Positions 11,044 to 23,381 of a stretch of 23,461 nucleotides of DNA are shown one piece after another. How positions within the stretch are numbered: the stretch's first letter is position 1; each line of letters begins with the position of its first letter. The notes below the pieces were generated by a model that searched no databases, was not told where the DNA came from, and was given only the letters and a program-made list of their open reading frames with translations. A program made the position numbers and the translations under genes. Source of the stretch: a virus; IMG/VR virus record IMGVR_UViG_3300042884_000135, positions 1 to 23,461 of that record; one strand, 5' to 3'.

Positions 11044-11910
11044 TCAGTCCCAGATGTACAACCAGTCGTCGTCAACGTTAGCTGGGAAGTAGTATCCAGC
11101 GTTAGGACGAGCGGTGATGATTGTATTCTCCGTGATGGTGTATGCGCCACTAGAAAGAGCCGTTAGGCCATCATAGTAGGTTACTCCAGCTTGGGATGGG
11201 ATTGTGATGATAGTGCTACCGTTGAATGACGGTACTTGCGGGGTAACGCTTGAGGTCTCTCCAGAGAACAATGCGATTACAGCATCGGGCAGCGGGAGGC
11301 TGGGGTCTGTTCCAGCAGTACCATAAAGGAAATCTTCCAAGGTACCGAGTGCTGAGGAGTTAACCTTAGTCGAATCAATCGTCAAGATTGAAGTCGGCTT
11401 AAGCATTCCAACAGAAACAGGCGTTGTTGCGATTGACCAGCTGAAAGTAATAGCCTCTGGCGAATCGTTAACTGTGTTGTAGGCGCGTTCCGAAGGACTT
11501 GCCTGGCAACCGTAAATAAGGTGAAGCTTATATCCTAGTTCATCGCCAGAAATATCGTTACCCATACGAGTACGATATGAAAGGCCGAACTTACTACGTG
11601 TCTGCTGTCCAACAGTAACACCACTCGTAGGAGTGGCCATACCGTCGAATTGAGCAAATTCGTCGGGGAAAGTGTAAGCTTCAATGGTTGCGCTAAATTC
11701 TTCAACAGAATACATGTTGAGGTACTTAACGTTGTCTGCGTACATTGGAGTTGGTTCTGCTCCGGATGGTGACTCAGTAACACTGGTCAGACCATTCCAA
11801 GCAACACCATCAGTGTAAACGCCATTTACGTTTGGTAGGTAGAGGACACCTTTGTCGACTCCGGTTTCAAAGAAACGTTCGCCGAGCTGGTCCCAATAAA
11901 GAATTGACAT
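11044..11910 (-). CDS. Major tail protein with C-terminal Ig-like domain
   Basis: This 288-residue tail-tube protein follows AAAGGAGATCAATT and begins MSILYWDQLGERFFETG. Residues 1-205 form the tube domain (V-A-W-N-G-L, A-Y-T-F-P-D-E-F, F-G-L-S-Y-R-T, S-I-L-T-I-D-S, L-E-D-F-L-Y-G). Residues 223-288 are a separate beta domain (T-I-I-T-I-P, G-V-T-Y, N-A-G-Y-Y-F-P, D-D-D-W) homologous to the end of the capsid protein. Codon use is clearly richer in G and C than in the flanking neck genes, as expected for a protein needed in hundreds of copies. This, rather than the paralogue at 9643-10461, is likely the main tube subunit. The tail terminator lies directly upstream and the chaperone directly downstream, the standard order. 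Confidence 0.88.
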   Translation of the reverse strand: MSILYWDQLGERFFETGVDKGVLYLPNVNGVYTDGVAWNGLTSVTESPSGAEPTPMYADNVKYLNMYSVEEFSATIEAYTFPDEFAQFDGMATPTSGVTVGQQTRSKFGLSYRTRMGNDISGDELGYKLHLIYGCQASPSERAYNTVNDSPEAITFSWSIATTPVSVGMLKPTSILTIDSTKVNSSALGTLEDFLYGTAGTDPSLPLPDAVIALFSGETSSVTPQVPSFNGSTIITIPSQAGVTYYDGLTALSSGAYTITENTIITARPNAGYYFPANVDDDWLYIWD

Positions 11911-12557: not shown

Positions 12558-14627
12558 TCAGGCGGTGTACTTAAAGGTCCAGCTATCGTCTTCGCTAGTT
12601 GCGAAGTAATATCCGGCAGATGCTGGGTAAGCAACGATAGTCGCGTCTGCTGTAATTACAACAGTTCCGGTCTTAACGGTCGTTCCCTGCTTGTACGTTA
12701 CACCAGTAACTGTAGGAATGGTGATCGTGTTGGTGGCGCTGACAAAGGTCGGTGCAACTGGAGTAACAAGAGCTGCGTTAGCCGCAACCTTCTTAACAAC
12801 AATGGCTGCCTTCATCTTAATGAGTGCTCCACACAAACGAGTCTCGATGAGGTACTTGTGCTGGTTGTAGTCGATGTCGAAGTCGTCGAACATTGAGATT
12901 GCTCCGCCCTTGTCAGCACCGAGGACATAGTCCTGCGGGTTAACGAGGATAGCAACGAGTTCTGCTTCTTCTTCCATAACTTCAACCGGAACAATGTCCA
13001 GAACACGCAGTTCCGAAGCCAATTCACCAAGATCACGATAGATTCGACGACCAAGTGTGTCCTTGAGTAGCAAGAACTGTGAGATATAGGTTTCGGTGGT
13101 GTACATGGTTGGTGTACCGGTACCCTTGAAGTGCTTGCGGTTTTTGATGATCGCATCAATAACTTCCTGCACTGATGAGTTTGCGTCATCCAAGTTAACG
13201 TTAACAACGGTGGTGTACAACTCGTGATCCTTAGCGATCGGGCGAATGTTACCTTCGTTGATCTTGTCTTCGTGCGAAACGTCACGACCGTCACCGATCA
13301 AGATTGCGCGAGCAATTTCTTCATCGAGCATCATGCGCATTTCAGCCTTCAACCAGGTAACGACATCAAAGTCGGTAATGTCGATCATGTCATCACGGTC
13401 AAGCTTCTGCTTCTTGTAGATGGTAGTAGGAGTCGTGATGCGCTTTGACACGCCGAAGTACTCTTCCTTCTTCAAGTCGCCAGTTACATAACCCTTAGCA
13501 CGGGCATCATCAAGCGTGATGTCGGCATGCATGGTCTTAATGCGGCTGAACGGGCTCTTACGGGTGTCGCCAAGCAACTTAGTGACCCATTCCGTACGAC
13601 GCTTAAGCCATTCTGGAACAGCATCAAGTGCAGTAGCTTCTGGGAATAGCTGATCAACATCGGTAATACCGTGTGACAATGCATATGACTCAATTGCATC
13701 TTTAAGCGATCCGCCCTTTGAGGCATCAGCAACGATACCCTGCAAATCAGCGTGAGAAATAGCAGCCTGTGCCTTATTGTTGTTGTTTTCAAAAATGTTA
13801 TTTGACATTTCCATACCTTTCGTGTTTGCGTGATTAATTTCTTCTTGTGCATCTTCAAAGAGTGCATTAAAGAGCTCTTGTTGTTGTTCGTTTAGTGATT
13901 CATAAACTTCTTGTGCACTAGCATCATCGTCTAATCCACTTTGAGCCATTACTGCTTCGTCTTGACTATCTTCTACGGCTTGACCAATTAAGTAATATAC
14001 TACTTGCTTTTGTTCATCACTTAGTGTATCAAATACGTCTTGAACAGTCATATCTGAACCAGCTGCGGCTTCTGTCTTGTTAGGCATATCTGCCATGTTA
14101 GCATCTCCTGATTTGTGTGTTAATACTGCTTCTTCAACAATATCAATTTCTTTTTTATTAACTGAGTGAAAGAGTTCAATACCCGTATAAATAATAGCTT
14201 CATCTTCAAGCTGAGTCTCAAAACCATCTGAGTGACGAATAGTTACACTTTCAATAATTGCCCCTGGATTAGCTCCAGAAAGAACTAGACTTACTTCTCG
14301 AATTGCACCGTGAAGTACGCGACCAGCTTTTTCAATTAATTCATTTGCCCAGATTGACAGCATATTAATATCACCATGTTCAAGTAAACCTTTAGCATGC
14401 GAAGCTTTTACTGAGCTATTAAAATATCCATATGCGTAAACACCGTCTTCTCGATTTTCAAGAATAGCGTGTCCAAGCACATTTTCTGGATCATTATGGC
14501 CGTGTTGCCATACTAATGGGACTTTCATTTGATCCTGATGTTTAAAAGCACCAGGCATAATTGTCCTACCATCGGTACAACGCAGCCCTGCTTTAGTAGC
14601 GTAACCACTAAAATCATAGTTTGCCAT
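12558..14627 (-). CDS. Prohead protease - scaffold linker - major capsid protein fusion
   Basis: This is 689 residues from ATG 14627, preceded by AAAGGA; ATG 14645, in ATGA overlap with the upstream stop, would add six. Residues 1-150 are an HK97-family (S78-type) prohead protease with the catalytic His in V-W-Q-H42-G-H and Ser in R-E-V-S113-L-V-L-S-G-A-N-P-G-A. Residues about 180-270 are acidic and helical with two related repeats, resembling a scaffold or delta domain. Residues 274-620 are an HK97-fold capsid protein (R-T-E-W-V, K-R-I-T-T-P-T-T-I, D-F-D-V-V-T-W-L-K-A-E-M-R, A-I-L-I-G-D-G-R). Residues 622-689 are an Ig-like domain. GC rises sharply at about 13,808: 35 of 60 bases at 12901-12960 against 22 of 60 at 14161-14220. 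No stop or frameshift separates the parts. Confidence 0.9.
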   Translation of the reverse strand: MANYDFSGYATKAGLRCTDGRTIMPGAFKHQDQMKVPLVWQHGHNDPENVLGHAILENREDGVYAYGYFNSSVKASHAKGLLEHGDINMLSIWANELIEKAGRVLHGAIREVSLVLSGANPGAIIESVTIRHSDGFETQLEDEAIIYTGIELFHSVNKKEIDIVEEAVLTHKSGDANMADMPNKTEAAAGSDMTVQDVFDTLSDEQKQVVYYLIGQAVEDSQDEAVMAQSGLDDDASAQEVYESLNEQQQELFNALFEDAQEEINHANTKGMEMSNNIFENNNNKAQAAISHADLQGIVADASKGGSLKDAIESYALSHGITDVDQLFPEATALDAVPEWLKRRTEWVTKLLGDTRKSPFSRIKTMHADITLDDARAKGYVTGDLKKEEYFGVSKRITTPTTIYKKQKLDRDDMIDITDFDVVTWLKAEMRMMLDEEIARAILIGDGRDVSHEDKINEGNIRPIAKDHELYTTVVNVNLDDANSSVQEVIDAIIKNRKHFKGTGTPTMYTTETYISQFLLLKDTLGRRIYRDLGELASELRVLDIVPVEVMEEEAELVAILVNPQDYVLGADKGGAISMFDDFDIDYNQHKYLIETRLCGALIKMKAAIVVKKVAANAALVTPVAPTFVSATNTITIPTVTGVTYKQGTTVKTGTVVITADATIVAYPASAGYYFATSEDDSWTFKYTA
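13806..13820 (-). promoter_or_regulatory. Internal ribosome site and start for stand-alone capsid protein
   Basis: Inside the fusion ORF, AAAGG (13816-13820) lies seven bases before an in-frame ATG (13808). Starting there gives MSNNIFENNNNK and a 416-residue capsid protein with its Ig-like domain, a normal stand-alone length. The site falls where base composition changes. It is inferred from sequence; the competing ATG at 13814 is too close to the ribosome site. Confidence 0.6.
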
Positions 14628-14641
14628 TGTTTTTATTCCTT

Positions 14642-14938
14642 TCATAGAGATGTCTTTTGTTTAAAAATCTGTTGTATTTTTGTTACTTCTGGTTCTTCAA
14701 CGAGATTTATTATTTTTTGAACCATTGCATTTGGTATGTGTAAAATGGAGTCTAGACAATCAACTTCGCTAAGCGACTGTGCTATCGAGGTGTGTTTTTT
14801 TTTACCATATTTTTTAGCATCAATTAAATATCCAACAGATTTAACAACATAGTCACCATCGTCTTCTAAATCATTTAAATATTCCCATGAACCAGAACCA
14901 GCATGCGCATCATGCCAAATAACAAGAACTAGTTTCAT
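14642..14938 (-). CDS. Conserved small phage protein of unknown function
   Basis: This 98-residue protein lies between portal and protease genes, coupled to both by ATGA overlaps (14935-14938; 14642-14645 if the next gene uses ATG 14645). It begins MKLVLVIWHDAHAGSGSW, then has acidic D-L-E-D-D-G-D-Y, V-K-S-V-G-Y-L-I-D, S-I-A-Q-S-L, and I-L-H-I-P-N-A-M-V near residue 70. The W-x-D-A, S-V-G-x-L and H-I-P-x-x-x-V order resembles a family of small phage proteins of unknown role that I have seen near head genes. A run of nine A residues in the coding strand (near 14795-14803) lies in the K-K-K-H stretch. No enzyme motif is visible. Confidence 0.6.
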   Translation of the reverse strand: MKLVLVIWHDAHAGSGSWEYLNDLEDDGDYVVKSVGYLIDAKKYGKKKHTSIAQSLSEVDCLDSILHIPNAMVQKIINLVEEPEVTKIQQIFKQKTSL

Positions 14939-16290
14939 AAGTCCCCTAATAATTCAGCACCTAGACTATATGTATTTTTAACTCCACCGCCAGATGATTC
15001 TAGGTCTCCTAATAATTCAGCTCCTAGACTATATACATCTTGAACTCCGGACGATGTGGGTTGTAGCATAGCTGGGTCCTGCATAGCTGGGTCCTGCATA
15101 GCTGGGTCCTGCATAGCTGGGTCAAATGGTTGCGGCATGTTTGGGTTACTTAACGTATCCGCTTTTGGTTCGGATGACGGTGGTATTCCTAAATAACCAC
15201 GAATTTCATTAGACGTTAAAATTTCATTACGAGTAAAAGTATCGGCTATTTGAGCAATCTCAGTTAGCGGAACTAATCTAAATGGGTCTCTGAAATATTT
15301 GATACTCTCTGTTTTTTTACTAATAAAAGTTCGTTCAAGTGATTCAATGATTGATTCAAGAATTGGTTCTATTGTTCTATTAAAGTAGTTAAGCATTGCT
15401 TTTTCATCAGCAGTACCGTTCATAATAGACTCAGTAATACCAAGTTGACCGTATAGCATTTGTGTTAGGTACTCTACTTGCTTTAATAAATTATTCTCAG
15501 CTGGTCTATTCAACTGTGTTATTTTTTCAGTTCCGTCCGTATATGCTATACCGTATTTACTACCCTTAAGTTGAAATTCAATATCTTCTCGACGTTGTTC
15601 TGCTTGTTGTTTTCGAGCTTCTGTCTTGATAGTGTATGGTAGCTGAATAATTAAGTCTAACTTACCAGAACTCGACTGTTCATCAACGGTGTCTAATAGT
15701 GTTAATTTTCGCAAAAGTCGCTGTAATGTTGAGTTAGGCTCATTCATAACTGCGTATAACGGGTTTTCAACAATAGCAATATTTCTTTTAGGTAAGGTTA
15801 TTTCTTCCTTAAGACCTTTAGCTTCATTGTAAACATTAACTCTAACATGCTTTGGGTACCATTGAACCACTTCTCCAACACGCATTGAGTAAATGTCGTA
15901 ATTTTCATTAGTGTTAGGATTTGAGCCTGTTTCTACTGGAACAATAACAGCAACGCCTTTATCAAATAAAGTCATTACTAAATCTTGTCTAAAGGCTCTT
16001 GGTGACTGATCTATATTTGGTTCGAGCGTTAAACATTCGTTTAAGGAACTTTCTTTATCTTTTGAGTATCTACCGACTTTATCGACAACCACATGCTTAT
16101 ATTTTACACTTGCGACATCAATAGCTATGCGAGTATATATGGCTGTAATGATTGATCTATCGTTATAAAATAAATGCCTAGTTCTATCTGGACGATACGT
16201 ACTAGTTGGACCTATGTTATAATCGAAACTCTCCTGTTCATAATTTTGAAAGGCATTCCATGCTTTTTTAAATTTATCTAAAATGGCCAA
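14935..16290 (-). CDS. Portal protein, HK97 type
   Basis: This is 451 residues. The start is TTG at 16290: AGGAGG lies nine bases upstream, two in-frame TGA codons lie immediately before it, and no near ATG is in frame. Body features fit phage portals: D-R-S-I-I-T-A-I-Y-T-R-I-A-I-D-V-A near 44-60, the clip/stem region rich in charged helix (R-K-Q-Q-A-E-Q-R-R-E-D-I), and G-Q-L-G-I-T-E-S-I-M-N-G-T-A-D-E then a long helix with F-N-R-T-I-E-P-I-L. The dodecameric portal is the DNA channel and the terminase docking ring. The C-terminal 62 residues are unusual: four D-P-A-M units (390-408), then two exact copies of YSLGAELLGDL (420-430 and 441-451), the second ending the protein. Confidence 0.88.
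   Translation of the reverse strand: MAILDKFKKAWNAFQNYEQESFDYNIGPTSTYRPDRTRHLFYNDRSIITAIYTRIAIDVASVKYKHVVVDKVGRYSKDKESSLNECLTLEPNIDQSPRAFRQDLVMTLFDKGVAVIVPVETGSNPNTNENYDIYSMRVGEVVQWYPKHVRVNVYNEAKGLKEEITLPKRNIAIVENPLYAVMNEPNSTLQRLLRKLTLLDTVDEQSSSGKLDLIIQLPYTIKTEARKQQAEQRREDIEFQLKGSKYGIAYTDGTEKITQLNRPAENNLLKQVEYLTQMLYGQLGITESIMNGTADEKAMLNYFNRTIEPILESIIESLERTFISKKTESIKYFRDPFRLVPLTEIAQIADTFTRNEILTSNEIRGYLGIPPSSEPKADTLSNPNMPQPFDPAMQDPAMQDPAMQDPAMLQPTSSGVQDVYSLGAELLGDLESSGGGVKNTYSLGAELLGDL
14938..15033 (-). repeat. Duplicated 11-residue motif at the portal C-terminus
   Basis: Two copies encode YSLGAELLGDL, at 15001-15033 and 14938-14970, separated by a Ser/Gly-rich linker. The protein copies are identical; the DNA copies differ at a few mainly silent positions, so the peptide rather than the DNA seems to be conserved. 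Confidence 0.8.
15066..15123 (-). repeat. 15-base tandem repeat in the portal gene, about 3.9 copies
   Basis: The unit on the plus strand is gcatagctgggtcct, repeated without mismatch at 15066-15080, 15081-15095, 15096-15110 and partly at 15111-15123. It encodes D-P-A-M-Q copies. Perfect identity implies recent expansion; copy number may vary between relatives. Confidence 0.9.
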
Positions 16291-16325: not shown

Positions 16326-16748
16326 TTATGCTTTATAGTTCAAATCAGTAACTCTAACATTAGATCCAAACTTTAATATAGCGGTTCGTACTTTAGCTTC
16401 TCCAGCATTAGATTTTTTTTGAAATGCTGCGCCTTTATCTACTTTTCTTTGTGCGGCTTTTTTTAGACTCCCTTTAGCCCGAGCAAGGGCGATTGGTGAT
16501 ATACCAGATGCAAATCTTAGTTTATCAAGTTTACCTGATTTTCCGCTTGCCACTCTTTTATTTAAATCTATATTTTTTTGAAGTCTAACGGTGGTACCGC
16601 TTACACGTTGTCCACTTTTATTTTTATAACCACTAAGAATTCCGGCTTTACTAAATCCAGCAGTAGTAACATTTTTCTTTTGACCCCATTTCATACCTTT
16701 AACACCTGCGTGTTCTAAATATGATTCTAAACTACTAAAGTTGTTCAT
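16326..16748 (-). CDS. KGMxWG-tag basic head-associated protein (third copy)
   Basis: This 140-residue protein begins MNNFSSLESY, and residues 10-22 are Y-L-E-H-A-G-V-K-G-M-K-W-G, aligning position for position with the gene upstream. The rest is strongly basic (many Lys/Arg, few acidic residues) with short helical stretches and no membrane segment. The motif is widespread in phage genomes next to head genes (often as H-x-G-I-K-G-x-K-W-G), and its role is, to my knowledge, unsettled. Position between terminase and portal suggests an internal head protein or packaging factor, with the basic body contacting DNA. ATG follows AGGAAAAAA. I do not recognise the C-terminal region. Confidence 0.7.
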   Translation of the reverse strand: MNNFSSLESYLEHAGVKGMKWGQKKNVTTAGFSKAGILSGYKNKSGQRVSGTTVRLQKNIDLNKRVASGKSGKLDKLRFASGISPIALARAKGSLKKAAQRKVDKGAAFQKKSNAGEAKVRTAILKFGSNVRVTDLNYKA

Positions 16749-16760
16749 TTTTTTTCCTAT

Positions 16761-17162
16761 TCAGCTCTGTGTTGCGTTATATATAGTTGAGGCAAGAGTT
16801 GCCGCAGCAGTTCCTAAGAACAGAGCAGCTACAGCTTTTTCTCCTCGCGTTGACTTATTTGCTAGTTTGTAGTCTGTATCGTTTGCAAGTTCTTTGTATT
16901 TTTTTTCAGCTGCTTTTTTATAATAGTCAAATTCTTTTTTATTTTTTGCAACTACAGCACTATCTTCTAAAAGTTGAGCCTCACGAGCTTTAATTAAAGT
17001 ATTCATTCGCGCTTGCTGAATCGCCTTAGTTTTTGCTCTACCTTTAAGTTTTGGTTCTGCTTTTGGTTCCGAGGAAGAGTTAGAGGCGCTTTTTTTACCC
17101 CATCGCATTCCCTTTTTACCAAAGTGTTCAAGATAATTATCTACGTTATCAAAATTGTGCAT
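16761..17162 (-). CDS. KGMxWG-tag protein with coiled coil and C-terminal hydrophobic helix (second copy)
   Basis: This is 133 residues, starting MHNFDNVDNY after AGGAGACTGAA. Residues 10-22 are Y-L-E-H-F-G-K-K-G-M-R-W-G. A Ser/Lys/Pro-rich linker follows, then a long charged coiled coil at about 45-100 (A-R-E-A-Q-L-L-E-D to K-K-Y-K-E-L-A). The C-terminus has an Ala-rich hydrophobic helix (A-V-A-A-L-F-L-G-T-A-A-A-T-L-A-S). This is the same plan as the second half of the protein at 18927-19634. It sits directly after the large terminase. Likely a virion-internal or capsid-associated protein; the hydrophobic end could contact membrane on ejection or pack in the head. Function unproven. Confidence 0.7.
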   Translation of the reverse strand: MHNFDNVDNYLEHFGKKGMRWGKKSASNSSSEPKAEPKLKGRAKTKAIQQARMNTLIKAREAQLLEDSAVVAKNKKEFDYYKKAAEKKYKELANDTDYKLANKSTRGEKAVAALFLGTAAATLASTIYNATQS

Positions 17163-17171
17163 TTCAGTCTC

Positions 17172-18917
17172 CTATTCGAATGCTTCTTTATGCGATTTGT
17201 ATGCTACGTAAGCGTCTAACAATGCGGAAACATTGTCGATTTTTTCTTCGCTTCTTTTTTTCAAAAGTTTTCTGTTACCATTAGTATCTTCTAATGTTAC
17301 AGCGTTACCCATAGCAAATGACATTAACTCTTGGTCAAATATTAGTTTTCGTTCCTCAGATAGAATTTTTAACTCTCCTAATGGAACTGATTCTGTTTTT
17401 GCACCTTGAATAACTTTTTGAATACCATACGGGCCGTTTTCAGATTCCCATCTAGTTATAAATTCTTTTGCGTTGTACGGGTCAAATCCTATACATCTAA
17501 CATCATAATTATTAGCCATAATTAATTGATCTAAGTCGTCATATACTTCCATCATATCCAAAACTGTTCCTTCTAAAACATGAAGACTTCCTTCGCTTAT
17601 GAATTGTTCATATTTGTGGCGCATTGCCCCTGGAAGTTTCATAAGAGTTAAAGACGTAATATAGCTAACGGTTTTAATTCCAAAAGAATAATTCGAAAAC
17701 GGGAATAAAAATGTGAATGCACAGAAGTCATCGCCTTGTGAAAGGTCGACGCCTAGAGAGCAAGGCATTTGCCAAAAGTCTCGTTGTTGGTGAGTTAGTG
17801 TTTCTTCATATGTAAAGAAATATGTATAACCCTCCATAGGAATACCAAACCTTTTAGCTAGTATGTCATTTCTAGATGCTGGAGCCTTTTCAGCTCTTTC
17901 AACATCTAAATGATATACATCATAGGTTACGGTTCTTCCCAAATTTGGATTGGCTTTAATCCACATGGCTGGATCACTAACTTCTTCGATAGAGTCTAGT
18001 TTGTAATACCAAATAGAAACGTGTGGCGCTAAATACTCGCCTTTTAAAATATTAGACAATTCCATTTTAATTGTGTCGCCAGAACCATTTCTAACTGTTC
18101 CTTCAGAACTAATTGCTAGAATTAGGTAGTCATCTAACTTCGATGCTCCTTGTTCAATAGCGCCAACAACGTCTTCTCTAATGTCTCCAGATAACCATTC
18201 GTCAACAGTAGCAACTTTTGGTCTTAGACCCTGCAACTTGTTGATTGACATCGGTCGAATCTCAAGTATAGATCCAGTAAGAAAGTTTTCAATACCTTTT
18301 TTAGTAGAGGCTAATTTTACTCTGTGGGCTCTAGAGCCCGTAGTATTTTGAATCGATCCCTCTGTAAGAAACTTAAAAAGAGGACCTCTAGCTCTTGTGA
18401 TCGCGGTTCTTAATGGTGACATTACTTCTTCAGCTTGTTTCATTGTTGGCGATGTTGTAATTTGATGAGTAGTAGAGGTGTCAACATTTAAAAAGTATGA
18501 TTGTATACACGAAGCATACATTGACTTAGCCGCACCTCTAGCTACTATCAAATATTGTTTTGTTGTTAAACGTTTTTTAACAGTCTTTAAAACAAAACCA
18601 CCTTTACCACTATTTGCTTTTGGGTCGTAAATATTTCTATCAACGAAGTAATACCATCCAAAAATTTGTTCAGCCCATACTTTAAAAGTATCTAATAGGT
18701 GAAGATCAGTACCATCAGTTAATGTTAACTCTTTTTCGCAATAGTCAATGAAGCCATTTACAGCTTCATCATCATAATACATATCTGGATTTTCTATTAA
18801 AGAATCAATTCTATTCATCTCCATTGAGATTTCTTTATTAACTAAAGTTTTTCCTGAAATAACTGAATCTCTAAATTCTCCATAATAAATAGGAGTTTTT
18901 GTATTTGATAGTACCAA
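17172..18917 (-). CDS. terL: Terminase large subunit
   Basis: At 581 residues this is the DNA-packaging motor. The ATPase domain has a variant Walker A V-A-R-G-A-A-K131-S (125-132) and Walker B V-A-T-V-D239-E240, with the coupling region near S269 in A-I-S-S-E-G. The nuclease domain has an acidic cluster beginning G-V-D391-L-S-Q-G-D-D, then I-G-F-D-P-Y-N-A and a C-terminal D-N-V-S-A-L-L-D-A-Y. Length and order fit the Terminase_1 family. The start is TTG at 18917, six bases after AGGAGATAAAA; the first ATG would remove about 30 residues. It lies between two tag-bearing genes with 9-base gaps, so all are likely translated together. Confidence 0.93.
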   Translation of the reverse strand: MVLSNTKTPIYYGEFRDSVISGKTLVNKEISMEMNRIDSLIENPDMYYDDEAVNGFIDYCEKELTLTDGTDLHLLDTFKVWAEQIFGWYYFVDRNIYDPKANSGKGGFVLKTVKKRLTTKQYLIVARGAAKSMYASCIQSYFLNVDTSTTHQITTSPTMKQAEEVMSPLRTAITRARGPLFKFLTEGSIQNTTGSRAHRVKLASTKKGIENFLTGSILEIRPMSINKLQGLRPKVATVDEWLSGDIREDVVGAIEQGASKLDDYLILAISSEGTVRNGSGDTIKMELSNILKGEYLAPHVSIWYYKLDSIEEVSDPAMWIKANPNLGRTVTYDVYHLDVERAEKAPASRNDILAKRFGIPMEGYTYFFTYEETLTHQQRDFWQMPCSLGVDLSQGDDFCAFTFLFPFSNYSFGIKTVSYITSLTLMKLPGAMRHKYEQFISEGSLHVLEGTVLDMMEVYDDLDQLIMANNYDVRCIGFDPYNAKEFITRWESENGPYGIQKVIQGAKTESVPLGELKILSEERKLIFDQELMSFAMGNAVTLEDTNGNRKLLKKRSEEKIDNVSALLDAYVAYKSHKEAFE

Positions 18918-18926
18918 TTTTATCTC

Positions 18927-19634
18927 CTAAGACTTAGCTTTATCCATTGCGGCTTTAATCGCAAGACCCGTAGCAGCAGTAGCAACAGCACTAACAGCAA
19001 CGGTTCCGGCTTGTCCGAGTAATTTACTAGCTGCTTTTTTACCTGTAGTAGACGGTCTAGTAGCTTTATTCAATTCTATGTATTTTTTCTCAGTTTCTAA
19101 ACGCTTAACTCTACGTTGAAGTTCAGCATCAGATAATTTCGTTGGTGGCTTTTTATACGTTGTTCTTTTTGCTACTTTTTTAGATGCTTTACTTGAACTA
19201 CGACCACCACTACGAGTACCCCAACGCATACCTTTTTTGCCGTAATGAGCTAAGTGATTTTCTAAACTTATAGATTGGCTGACTGAATCAGACCTTTTTT
19301 CAATTTCTTCATTGATTAAATTTTTCATATATTGTTCACCTCGACTTCCTACTGCTAGCCATTTGACTTGCGCGATAACTCCCGCAATTCTAAAATCATT
19401 GTAATGTCTTGCGTTCCATGCTTCTCTTAGCTTTAGAGCATCAATTTCAATCTGCGAATTTGGAACACCATTTCGTTTTGTTATTGGATACAGTTTTCGG
19501 TATTGATCATTACCTCTAATGTTTCCGCCGAGCTTCCAAATATCAGGATGCTCTGTGCGGATCATTTCAGCAAAGTCAGGATCAAACCGTTTCCACTTAC
19601 TTGTCCTAAAGGATATGGTTTCTTCAGTAGCCAT
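18927..19634 (-). CDS. Two-domain head protein with internal KGMxWG tag (first copy)
   Basis: This is 235 residues. Residues 1-115 form a separate domain (K-W-K-R-F-D-P-D-F-A-E, P-D-I-W-K-L-G-G-N-I-R-G-N, E-A-W-N-A-R-H, D-F-R-I-A-G-V-I-A-Q-V-K-W, V-G-S-R-G-E-Q-Y-M) of a type I have seen near phage head genes; its function is unknown to me. Residues 127-139 are H-L-A-H-Y-G-K-K-G-M-R-W-G. Then come a basic linker, L-S-D-A-E-L-Q-R-R-V-K-R-L-E-T-E-K-K-Y-I (a coiled coil frequent in tagged phage proteins), and an Ala/Gly-rich hydrophobic C-terminus. The second half mirrors the gene at 16761-17162, so this looks like a domain fused to the tagged protein type. It begins six bases after the adaptor gene. 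Confidence 0.7.
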   Translation of the reverse strand: MATEETISFRTSKWKRFDPDFAEMIRTEHPDIWKLGGNIRGNDQYRKLYPITKRNGVPNSQIEIDALKLREAWNARHYNDFRIAGVIAQVKWLAVGSRGEQYMKNLINEEIEKRSDSVSQSISLENHLAHYGKKGMRWGTRSGGRSSSKASKKVAKRTTYKKPPTKLSDAELQRRVKRLETEKKYIELNKATRPSTTGKKAASKLLGQAGTVAVSAVATAATGLAIKAAMDKAKS

Positions 19635-19640
19635 AACTAA

Positions 19641-19991
19641 TCACAACAAACTTGTTTCGTATTCTTTTAACGTCATAATGCGCCACTCAAACTCTTCTGC
19701 TTGTTTTTGGTACGCTGACAATAAGAACGAAGTTGTCGGCGGGTCAAACAATACTCGAACCTTCACATAAATATAGCTCTTAACCATACCAAGCATTGGT
19801 AGCGACAAATTTAACTCACTCCAAGTGTCAGTAGCATCGACTACAGAAAATCCAGCATTAGGTAATACACCGATTTGTGTTAGTGTTCCTAACGCGGAGT
19901 TGATACATATCAAAATATCTTGATCAAACGGTGTGTATGTGGCATCTAGTCCTAGGCTTTTCTTTGTACTTTTTAAAATACTTGTTTCCAT
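19641..19991 (-). CDS. Head-tail adaptor, gp6-like
   Basis: This 116-residue protein is mostly helical. It includes D-Q-D-I-L-I-C-I-N-S-A-L-G-T-L-T-Q-I-G-V, D-A-T-D-T-W-S-E-L, G-M-V-K-S-Y-I-Y-V-K-V-R-V-L-F-D-P-P and a C-terminal E-E-F-E-W-R-I-M helix. The [IL]-N-x-x-L-x-x-L-x-Q-I-G-V plus L-x-F-D-P-P-x-x-S pattern is that of the small adaptor proteins which form the ring below the portal in HK97-like and Gram-positive siphophages. It is normally located after the capsid gene; here it is upstream of the large terminase, so part of the neck set has moved. Start ATG 19991 has only a weak AGAAG ribosome site. Confidence 0.7.
   Translation of the reverse strand: METSILKSTKKSLGLDATYTPFDQDILICINSALGTLTQIGVLPNAGFSVVDATDTWSELNLSLPMLGMVKSYIYVKVRVLFDPPTTSFLLSAYQKQAEEFEWRIMTLKEYETSLL

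Positions 19992-21203: not shown

Positions 21204-21207
<4 letters not shown>
21070..21207 (-). CDS. 45-residue helical protein coupled to the fibre gene
   Basis: This gene was found by hand reading of the gap between fibre and small-terminase genes. ATG 21207 overlaps the fibre TGA as ATGA, and the frame ends at TAA 21070-21072, 25 bases before the next start. The product begins [18 protein letters not shown], continues with [15 protein letters not shown] as one amphipathic helix or short coiled coil, and ends in a polar tail. Overlap, good coding character and a clean end support expression. Position after an S74 fibre suggests a fibre-assembly helper or a small regulator. I do not recognise a named family. 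Confidence 0.65.

Positions 21208-23381
<2,174 letters not shown>

Follow-up and report, generated by a model that had tools for sequence, protein, structure and literature searches.

A short peptide tag on basic proteins of phages with 1706-type heads is a candidate procapsid-loading signal

The DNA examined here is a stretch of 23,461 bases of a virus record (IMG/VR record IMGVR_UViG_3300042884_000135), hereafter the window, in which a short peptide, the GMKWG tag, is carried by three different proteins encoded around the large terminase gene. The tag is rare and is tied near-exclusively to one head lineage, that of Lactococcus phage 1706, in which protease, scaffold and capsid are fused in a single protein. 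We propose, with a probability of about 0.72, that the tag is a portable procapsid-loading signal, by which basic late proteins would be loaded into the 1706-type head and enzyme cargo delivered together with the DNA. The motif, its coupling to one head lineage, its genomic position, and the basicity and diversity of the cargo were all computed here.

The three motifs are located on the minus strand at 16683-16721, 17097-17135 and 19218-19256, where the first-pass annotation had placed them, and no fourth copy was detected when all frames of the window were scanned. The first two occupy residues 10-22 of tagged protein 1 (16326..16748, minus strand; 140 amino acids (aa), isoelectric point (pI) 10.8) and tagged protein 2 (16761..17162, minus strand; 133 aa, pI 9.8), while the third is internal, at residues 127-139 of tagged protein 3 (18927..19634, minus strand; 235 aa, pI 10.2). 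With 36.1, 32.8 and 28.2 bits, respectively, these proteins score above the curated cut-off of 27 bits of the 25-residue Pfam family DUF7211 (PF23847), which has a name but no function. The annotation's description of the bodies held: all three proteins are basic, proteins 2 and 3 have a helical stretch and a hydrophobic C-terminus, and protein 1 has neither. A search of openly licensed papers found neither DUF7211 nor the string GVKGMKWG.

A hidden Markov model (HMM) of the tag, built from 278 instances, was tried on the open reading frames (ORFs) of 247 sequences. It gave at least 15 bits for 485 real ORFs and at most 9.2 bits for reversed ORFs, indicating that the tag is not a chance pattern. 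The consensus is L-x-H-[YHF]-G-[VI]-K-G-M-[KR]-W-G-x-[RK]-[RK], with acidic or polar residues before the motif and basic residues after it. In a set of 295 tagged ORFs, the median start of the first tag is residue 13, a mostly N-terminal position; 28 of these ORFs carry two or three tags, and all tagged ORFs within one locus are on the same strand. Across 148 tagged proteins with a mean column identity of 5%, the H, G, G, W and G of the tag are near-invariant. The AlphaFold2 model of one tagged protein predicts the body well and gives low confidence to residues 1-60 (tag plus linker), as expected of a linear motif.

The motif had been taken to be common in phages, but about 200-225 of 50,697 phage records match it. 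Compared as totals per genus, the records in this collection that match the tag and those that carry the fused capsid gave the same counts (Arthrobacter 95, Gordonia 55, Streptomyces 54, Curtobacterium 7 and Rhodococcus 4); for Lactococcus phages, 13 records had the tag (with one of two queries) and 13 the fused capsid. When the search started from the capsid, tags were present in each of the 38 viral loci in which the sequence upstream of the capsid extends for 5 kb or more. When it started from the tag, 36 of 37 viral records with a length of 15 kb or more had the fused capsid (phrog_3270), and 30 of the 33 tagged bacterial genomes had a member of its family. An even draw of 291 clostridial genomes contained both tag and capsid in the same three, one of them being the centre of the draw; in a draw of 296 Actinomycetota, a full-length tag or capsid was found in the centre genome only. 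Ten phages reached via similarity of the capsid, the scaffold repeat or the terminase were all tagged, and no tag was found when looked for in Streptococcus phage Javan347, which has separate protease and capsid genes. Within 43 whole records, 145 of the 150 listed tags lie at most 15 kb upstream of the fused capsid and on its strand, and four of the remaining five belong to one unusual phage. The search for co-occurrence with HK97-type heads that the first-pass annotation had suggested thus coupled the tag to a single head lineage, the 1706 type, and the outcome it had named as damaging, a tag equally frequent outside head modules, did not occur.

The portal protein of the window (14935..16290, minus strand; Phage_portal) has relatives in 266 records of the same genera, compared with 247 records for the capsid, and its phyletic range is nearly that of tag and capsid. 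Relatives of the large terminase subunit (TerL; 17172..18917, minus strand; profile matches) are far more widespread, occurring in 1,764 records, whereas tag and capsid are found in about 225-247; within the module, the tag thus goes with portal and capsid, and the idea that it tracks TerL is ruled out. A generic phage motif is likewise ruled out by the confinement to one head lineage.

Some departures from the usual arrangement were noted in passing. In Caudovirus D_HF5_2C (L259/L263), unlike in every other phage checked, most tags lie on the downstream side of the capsid and ahead of the tape-measure gene, and a single tag is 23 kb away. Many prophages (genomes of loci L129-L167, such as G014, G017 and G033) have the protease-capsid frame broken by one stop codon, so that protease and capsid may be separate genes there, with the tag kept. 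The tag was also seen on contigs binned as a Thermoplasmata archaeon (L157) and a Parachlamydiaceae bacterium (L145), the former bin also containing the fused capsid; these are either misbinned phage contigs or point to unusual hosts.

The tagged proteins are set apart by their charge. The median pI of 412 tagged ORFs was 10.05 and 97% exceeded 9, a proportion that fell only to 95% after removal of the tag, whereas 1,637 untagged neighbours on the same strand had a median pI of 5.27 with 13.6% above 9; the sequences are related, and p-values for pI, as for the correlation described below, overstate independence, although the difference in pI is very large. The same held within one enzyme family: four tagged GNATs had pI 9.35-9.81 and three untagged GNATs of related phages pI 5.4-6.1. 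In contrast, the linker that joins protease to capsid is very acidic (family median pI 4.05, about -22 charges per 100 residues). Strong basicity is known for the internal head proteins of phage T4 (PMC9026906).

The bodies behind the tag were grouped into cargo families by iterative HMMs over 476 distinct tagged ORFs. The core family comprises 159 ORFs in 156 loci, about one per locus, and includes protein 3 of the window and gp07 of phage 1706. Its members share a conserved helix, LSxxELQxxVxRxNLEQQYxxL, and, after it, a hydrophobic C-terminus; in protein 3 the helix is KLSDAELQRRVKRLETEKKYIEL (residues 167-189, 19068..19136) and the hydrophobic segment covers residues 200-230 (18945..19037). 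This family is probably a regular minor component of the head, and the other tagged families would be interchangeable cargo. Relatives of the bodies of protein 1 and protein 2, searched for among 33,203 ORFs, were tagged in 23 of 23 and 18 of 18 cases, respectively. The N-terminal domain of protein 3 (about residues 3-119, 19278..19628) recurs in only four other tagged loci and shows 32% identity to a hypothetical protein present in 183 Salinibacter phage records.

The 148 tagged proteins matched 17 Pfam families, including papain-fold glutamine-deamidase toxin (8 proteins), GNAT (7), 2H-phosphoesterase (7) and ADP-ribosyltransferase (ART; 1). No MuF domain was found among these 17 families or in the window proteins. 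Cargo family B, which has 40 members and is absent from the window, gave no Pfam match in the member examined and no credible relative in a sequence search of the PDB. Its model (mean predicted local distance difference test score, pLDDT, 82) had ART/NADase folds as nearly all of its top matches, among them MbcT (the best, Z 7.6), the diphtheria catalytic domain (7.2), Tse6 (6.4), Tne2, NatT and pertussis S1, and also matched a cyanophage pre-ejectosome protein. In proteins with two tags, an ART/NADase-like or similar domain is joined to a second tagged unit. Many of the other bodies lack enzyme domains and are small helical proteins of basic character. Inspection by eye picked out a zincin-like protein (HETAH; L107:6163-6858), a RelA/SpoT-like protein (L057:2390-3079) and an SLOG-like nucleotide-binding protein (L022:6973-7692), for which Pfam gave no confident match. 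One tagged protein has a label of its own: gp07 (orf7) of phage 1706, which carries two tags, is named 'structural protein' in its authors' record, supporting a location in the virion.

The protein with which the tag is coupled is, in the window, a fusion of head-maturation protease, acidic scaffold linker and HK97-fold capsid (12558..14645, minus strand; 695 aa, 1706 gp10 type). Protease and capsid fall within one phrog_3270 match (residues 7-654, E=2e-234), with a further match to Phage_capsid. A fold search matched HK97-type capsids, encapsulins and the protease of Kaposi's sarcoma-associated herpesvirus, all only at E above 1e-3, and a sequence search of the PDB found no relatives. The linker (residues 141-300, 13746..14225) has a computed net charge of -28 and contains two copies of a 26-residue repeat, TVQDVFDTLSDEQKQVVYYLIGQAVED (residues 200-226, 13968..14048) and a degenerate second copy (residues 243-269, 13839..13919), both recognised by the repeat HMM and each modelled as a helix hairpin. 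One to five copies are present in 163 of 166 full-length fused capsids, and tblastn with the repeat gave matches solely in genera that carry the tag. Phages with more repeats tend to have more tagged ORFs (Spearman 0.43, n=71; independent contrasts r=0.43; tip-shuffle p=0.002, subject to the relatedness noted above). This acidic linker with its helical repeat is the most likely candidate for the receptor of the tag, and repeat 1 is a candidate docking site; the correlation is real but modest and serves as support only, so that the link between repeat and tag is a lead and not a proof. At the other end of the fusion, an Ig-like C-terminal segment of the capsid (12558-12770, GVTYKQGTTV...GYYFATSEDDSWTF) resembles the C-terminus of a likely tail protein at 11044-11910 (GVTYYDGLTAL...GYYFPANVDDDWLY), and among relatives, positions 561-602 at the end of the capsid profile find an additional match in a second ORF, about 300 aa long and located some 1.5 kb downstream.

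These observations suggest the following course of events. Phages with the 1706-type head make the polyprotein of protease, acidic scaffold linker and capsid, and the tag would recruit strongly basic late proteins to the assembling procapsid. Closure of the shell would enclose the tagged proteins, which would remain with the DNA as internal head proteins and leave the head together with it. By analogy with T4 Alt, tagged enzymes are probably injected into the host together with the DNA, where they would serve as early effectors that modify the cell or counter its defences. The first-pass annotation had read the tag as an address label, for example for loading into the prohead. Apart from its error on how common the motif is, that reading gains strong indirect support from several sides: the tag is coupled near-exclusively to one head lineage and located in the head module, its bearers are extremely basic and include enzymes of the injected-effector type, and the tagged 1706 protein is labelled as structural; the loading itself is the step that we infer.

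Docking is most likely on the acidic linker repeat, the portal and the inner surface of the shell being the alternatives. A tentative extension, not the likelier course, is an arrangement like that of cohesin and dockerin, in which each of the one to five linker repeats could bind a GMKWG tag and the arsenal would grow by the addition of repeats and tagged effectors. It is rather unlikely that the tag docks instead on the portal ring, in the manner of SPP1 gp7 (MuF), a few copies entering at the portal vertex. The matching phyletic range of the portal and the location of most tagged genes between TerL and portal fit this possibility, but on its own it leaves unexplained both the very basic cargo opposite a very acidic linker and the lineage-specific linker repeat. 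Binding to the inner surface of the HK97-fold shell, with the tag staying bound after maturation, is improbable. Here the model is the cargo-loading peptide of encapsulins, a short and usually C-terminal peptide that docks on the shell itself and by which unrelated enzymes are directed into a shell of HK97 fold that contains no virus DNA. Both the lineage-specific coupling to the capsid gene and the HK97/encapsulin class of the capsid fold are in line with it, but the present tag is usually N-terminal.

Other explanations dispense with delivery. The tag might mark scaffold-like assembly factors that shape the procapsid and are then destroyed by the prohead protease, a possibility suggested by the protease domain within the same polyprotein and by the many small, basic, helical bodies. 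We consider it slightly less probable still than binding to the shell, because 1706 gp07 is labelled a structural protein and the ART-like, papain-fold and GNAT enzymes have no obvious role in a scaffold. Very improbable is a tag without targeting function, left as the conserved remnant of one duplicated gene family with diverged bodies: several tagged genes do adjoin and some bodies form families, but the same tag heads unrelated folds, may be internal or occur twice in fusions, and keeps its near-invariant positions across 148 proteins with a mean column identity of 5%.

Several points weigh against procapsid loading and delivery as proposed. The course proposed for the tagged proteins, from loading and docking through possible cleavage of the tag to ejection and action as effectors, is a series of steps that we infer. 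The evidence for a virion location comes from the label of one protein, 1706 gp07; the 2008 paper on phage 1706 reportedly used liquid chromatography-tandem mass spectrometry, and the available passages of the Arthrobacter and Rhodococcus phage papers contain no virion proteomics. Most tagged bodies have no assigned function, and the ART-like match of family B is below Z 8. With regard to the linker, 15 of the 24 informative contrasts between repeat and tag number agree in sign and 9 oppose, Scap1 and D_HF5_2C have tags and no recognisable repeat, and portal and capsid are co-inherited, so that phyletic data cannot choose the docking partner.

The closest known system is that of T4, in which N-terminal targeting propeptides send the IP proteins into the prohead core (PMC9026906). 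The present tag resembles the capsid targeting sequence (CTS) of T4, by which these proteins are loaded into the procapsid alongside the ADP-ribosyltransferase Alt (PMC9026906): it is a short peptide, found mostly at the N-terminus of late proteins that are basic, otherwise unrelated and presumably internal. It differs in belonging to another phage lineage with other head genes, in its unrelated sequence, in being longer, invariant and sometimes internal or duplicated, and in the association with a capsid-protease-scaffold polyprotein. T4-like head genes (gp21-gp24) are absent from the window, the head genes of which are of the phrog_3270, phrog_12 and phrog_9 types; the tag is therefore not assigned to the CTS class, although it may function in a similar way. 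MuF polymorphic toxins (SPP1 gp7/EFV toxin type) are also head-associated and have interchangeable effector domains such as ART and RelA-like domains (PMC5576092), but their carrier is a folded domain and not a peptide of about 25 residues, and the lack of MuF noted above rules out membership. Head-packaged polyvalent proteins and ARTs, described by Iyer, Aravind and co-workers, are effectors encoded beside terminase and portal and predicted to be packaged and injected; in the passages available of these papers, delivery is predicted via domain fusion and not via a common peptide, and the GMKWG tag is not described (PMC5512222, PMC9503650). Since head-packaged ARTs and MuF-linked effectors are known, effector delivery itself is not new. 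A common tag that predicts head delivery appears to be new, and the coupling to a head lineage and the basic cargo go beyond the naming of DUF7211.

The window as a whole has the gene order of phage 1706: on the minus strand, HNH endonuclease, connector (phrog_4247, 19641..19991; equivalent to 1706 gp06 by order), tagged protein, TerL, portal and fused protease-capsid, which places its head module in the 1706 type by this test as well. Compared with 1706, the window has two more tagged genes, which lie between TerL and portal, and a small ORF that separates portal from capsid. This ORF (14642-14938, 98 aa) belongs to no clear family; its place in related phages is taken by a larger, uncharacterised gene, which in Microbacterium phage DizzyRudy is named 'scaffolding protein'. 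Elsewhere in the window, inspection by eye suggests that 21204-23381 encodes a tail fibre: the sequence contains long GPTGPTG repeats of collagen type, and its C-terminal region resembles an intramolecular chaperone of the S74 type.

If the proposed role of the tag is correct, DUF7211 would become a marker, readable from sequence only, of head cargo in a widespread siphophage lineage that includes phages of Actinobacteria, Bacillota and Bacteroidota as well as metagenomic phages. It would supply a list of candidate injected effectors, many of them without known domains, and a simple route to testing protein delivery by siphophages in laboratory strains. Peptide-directed protein loading, established for T4, would then have arisen independently in another lineage.

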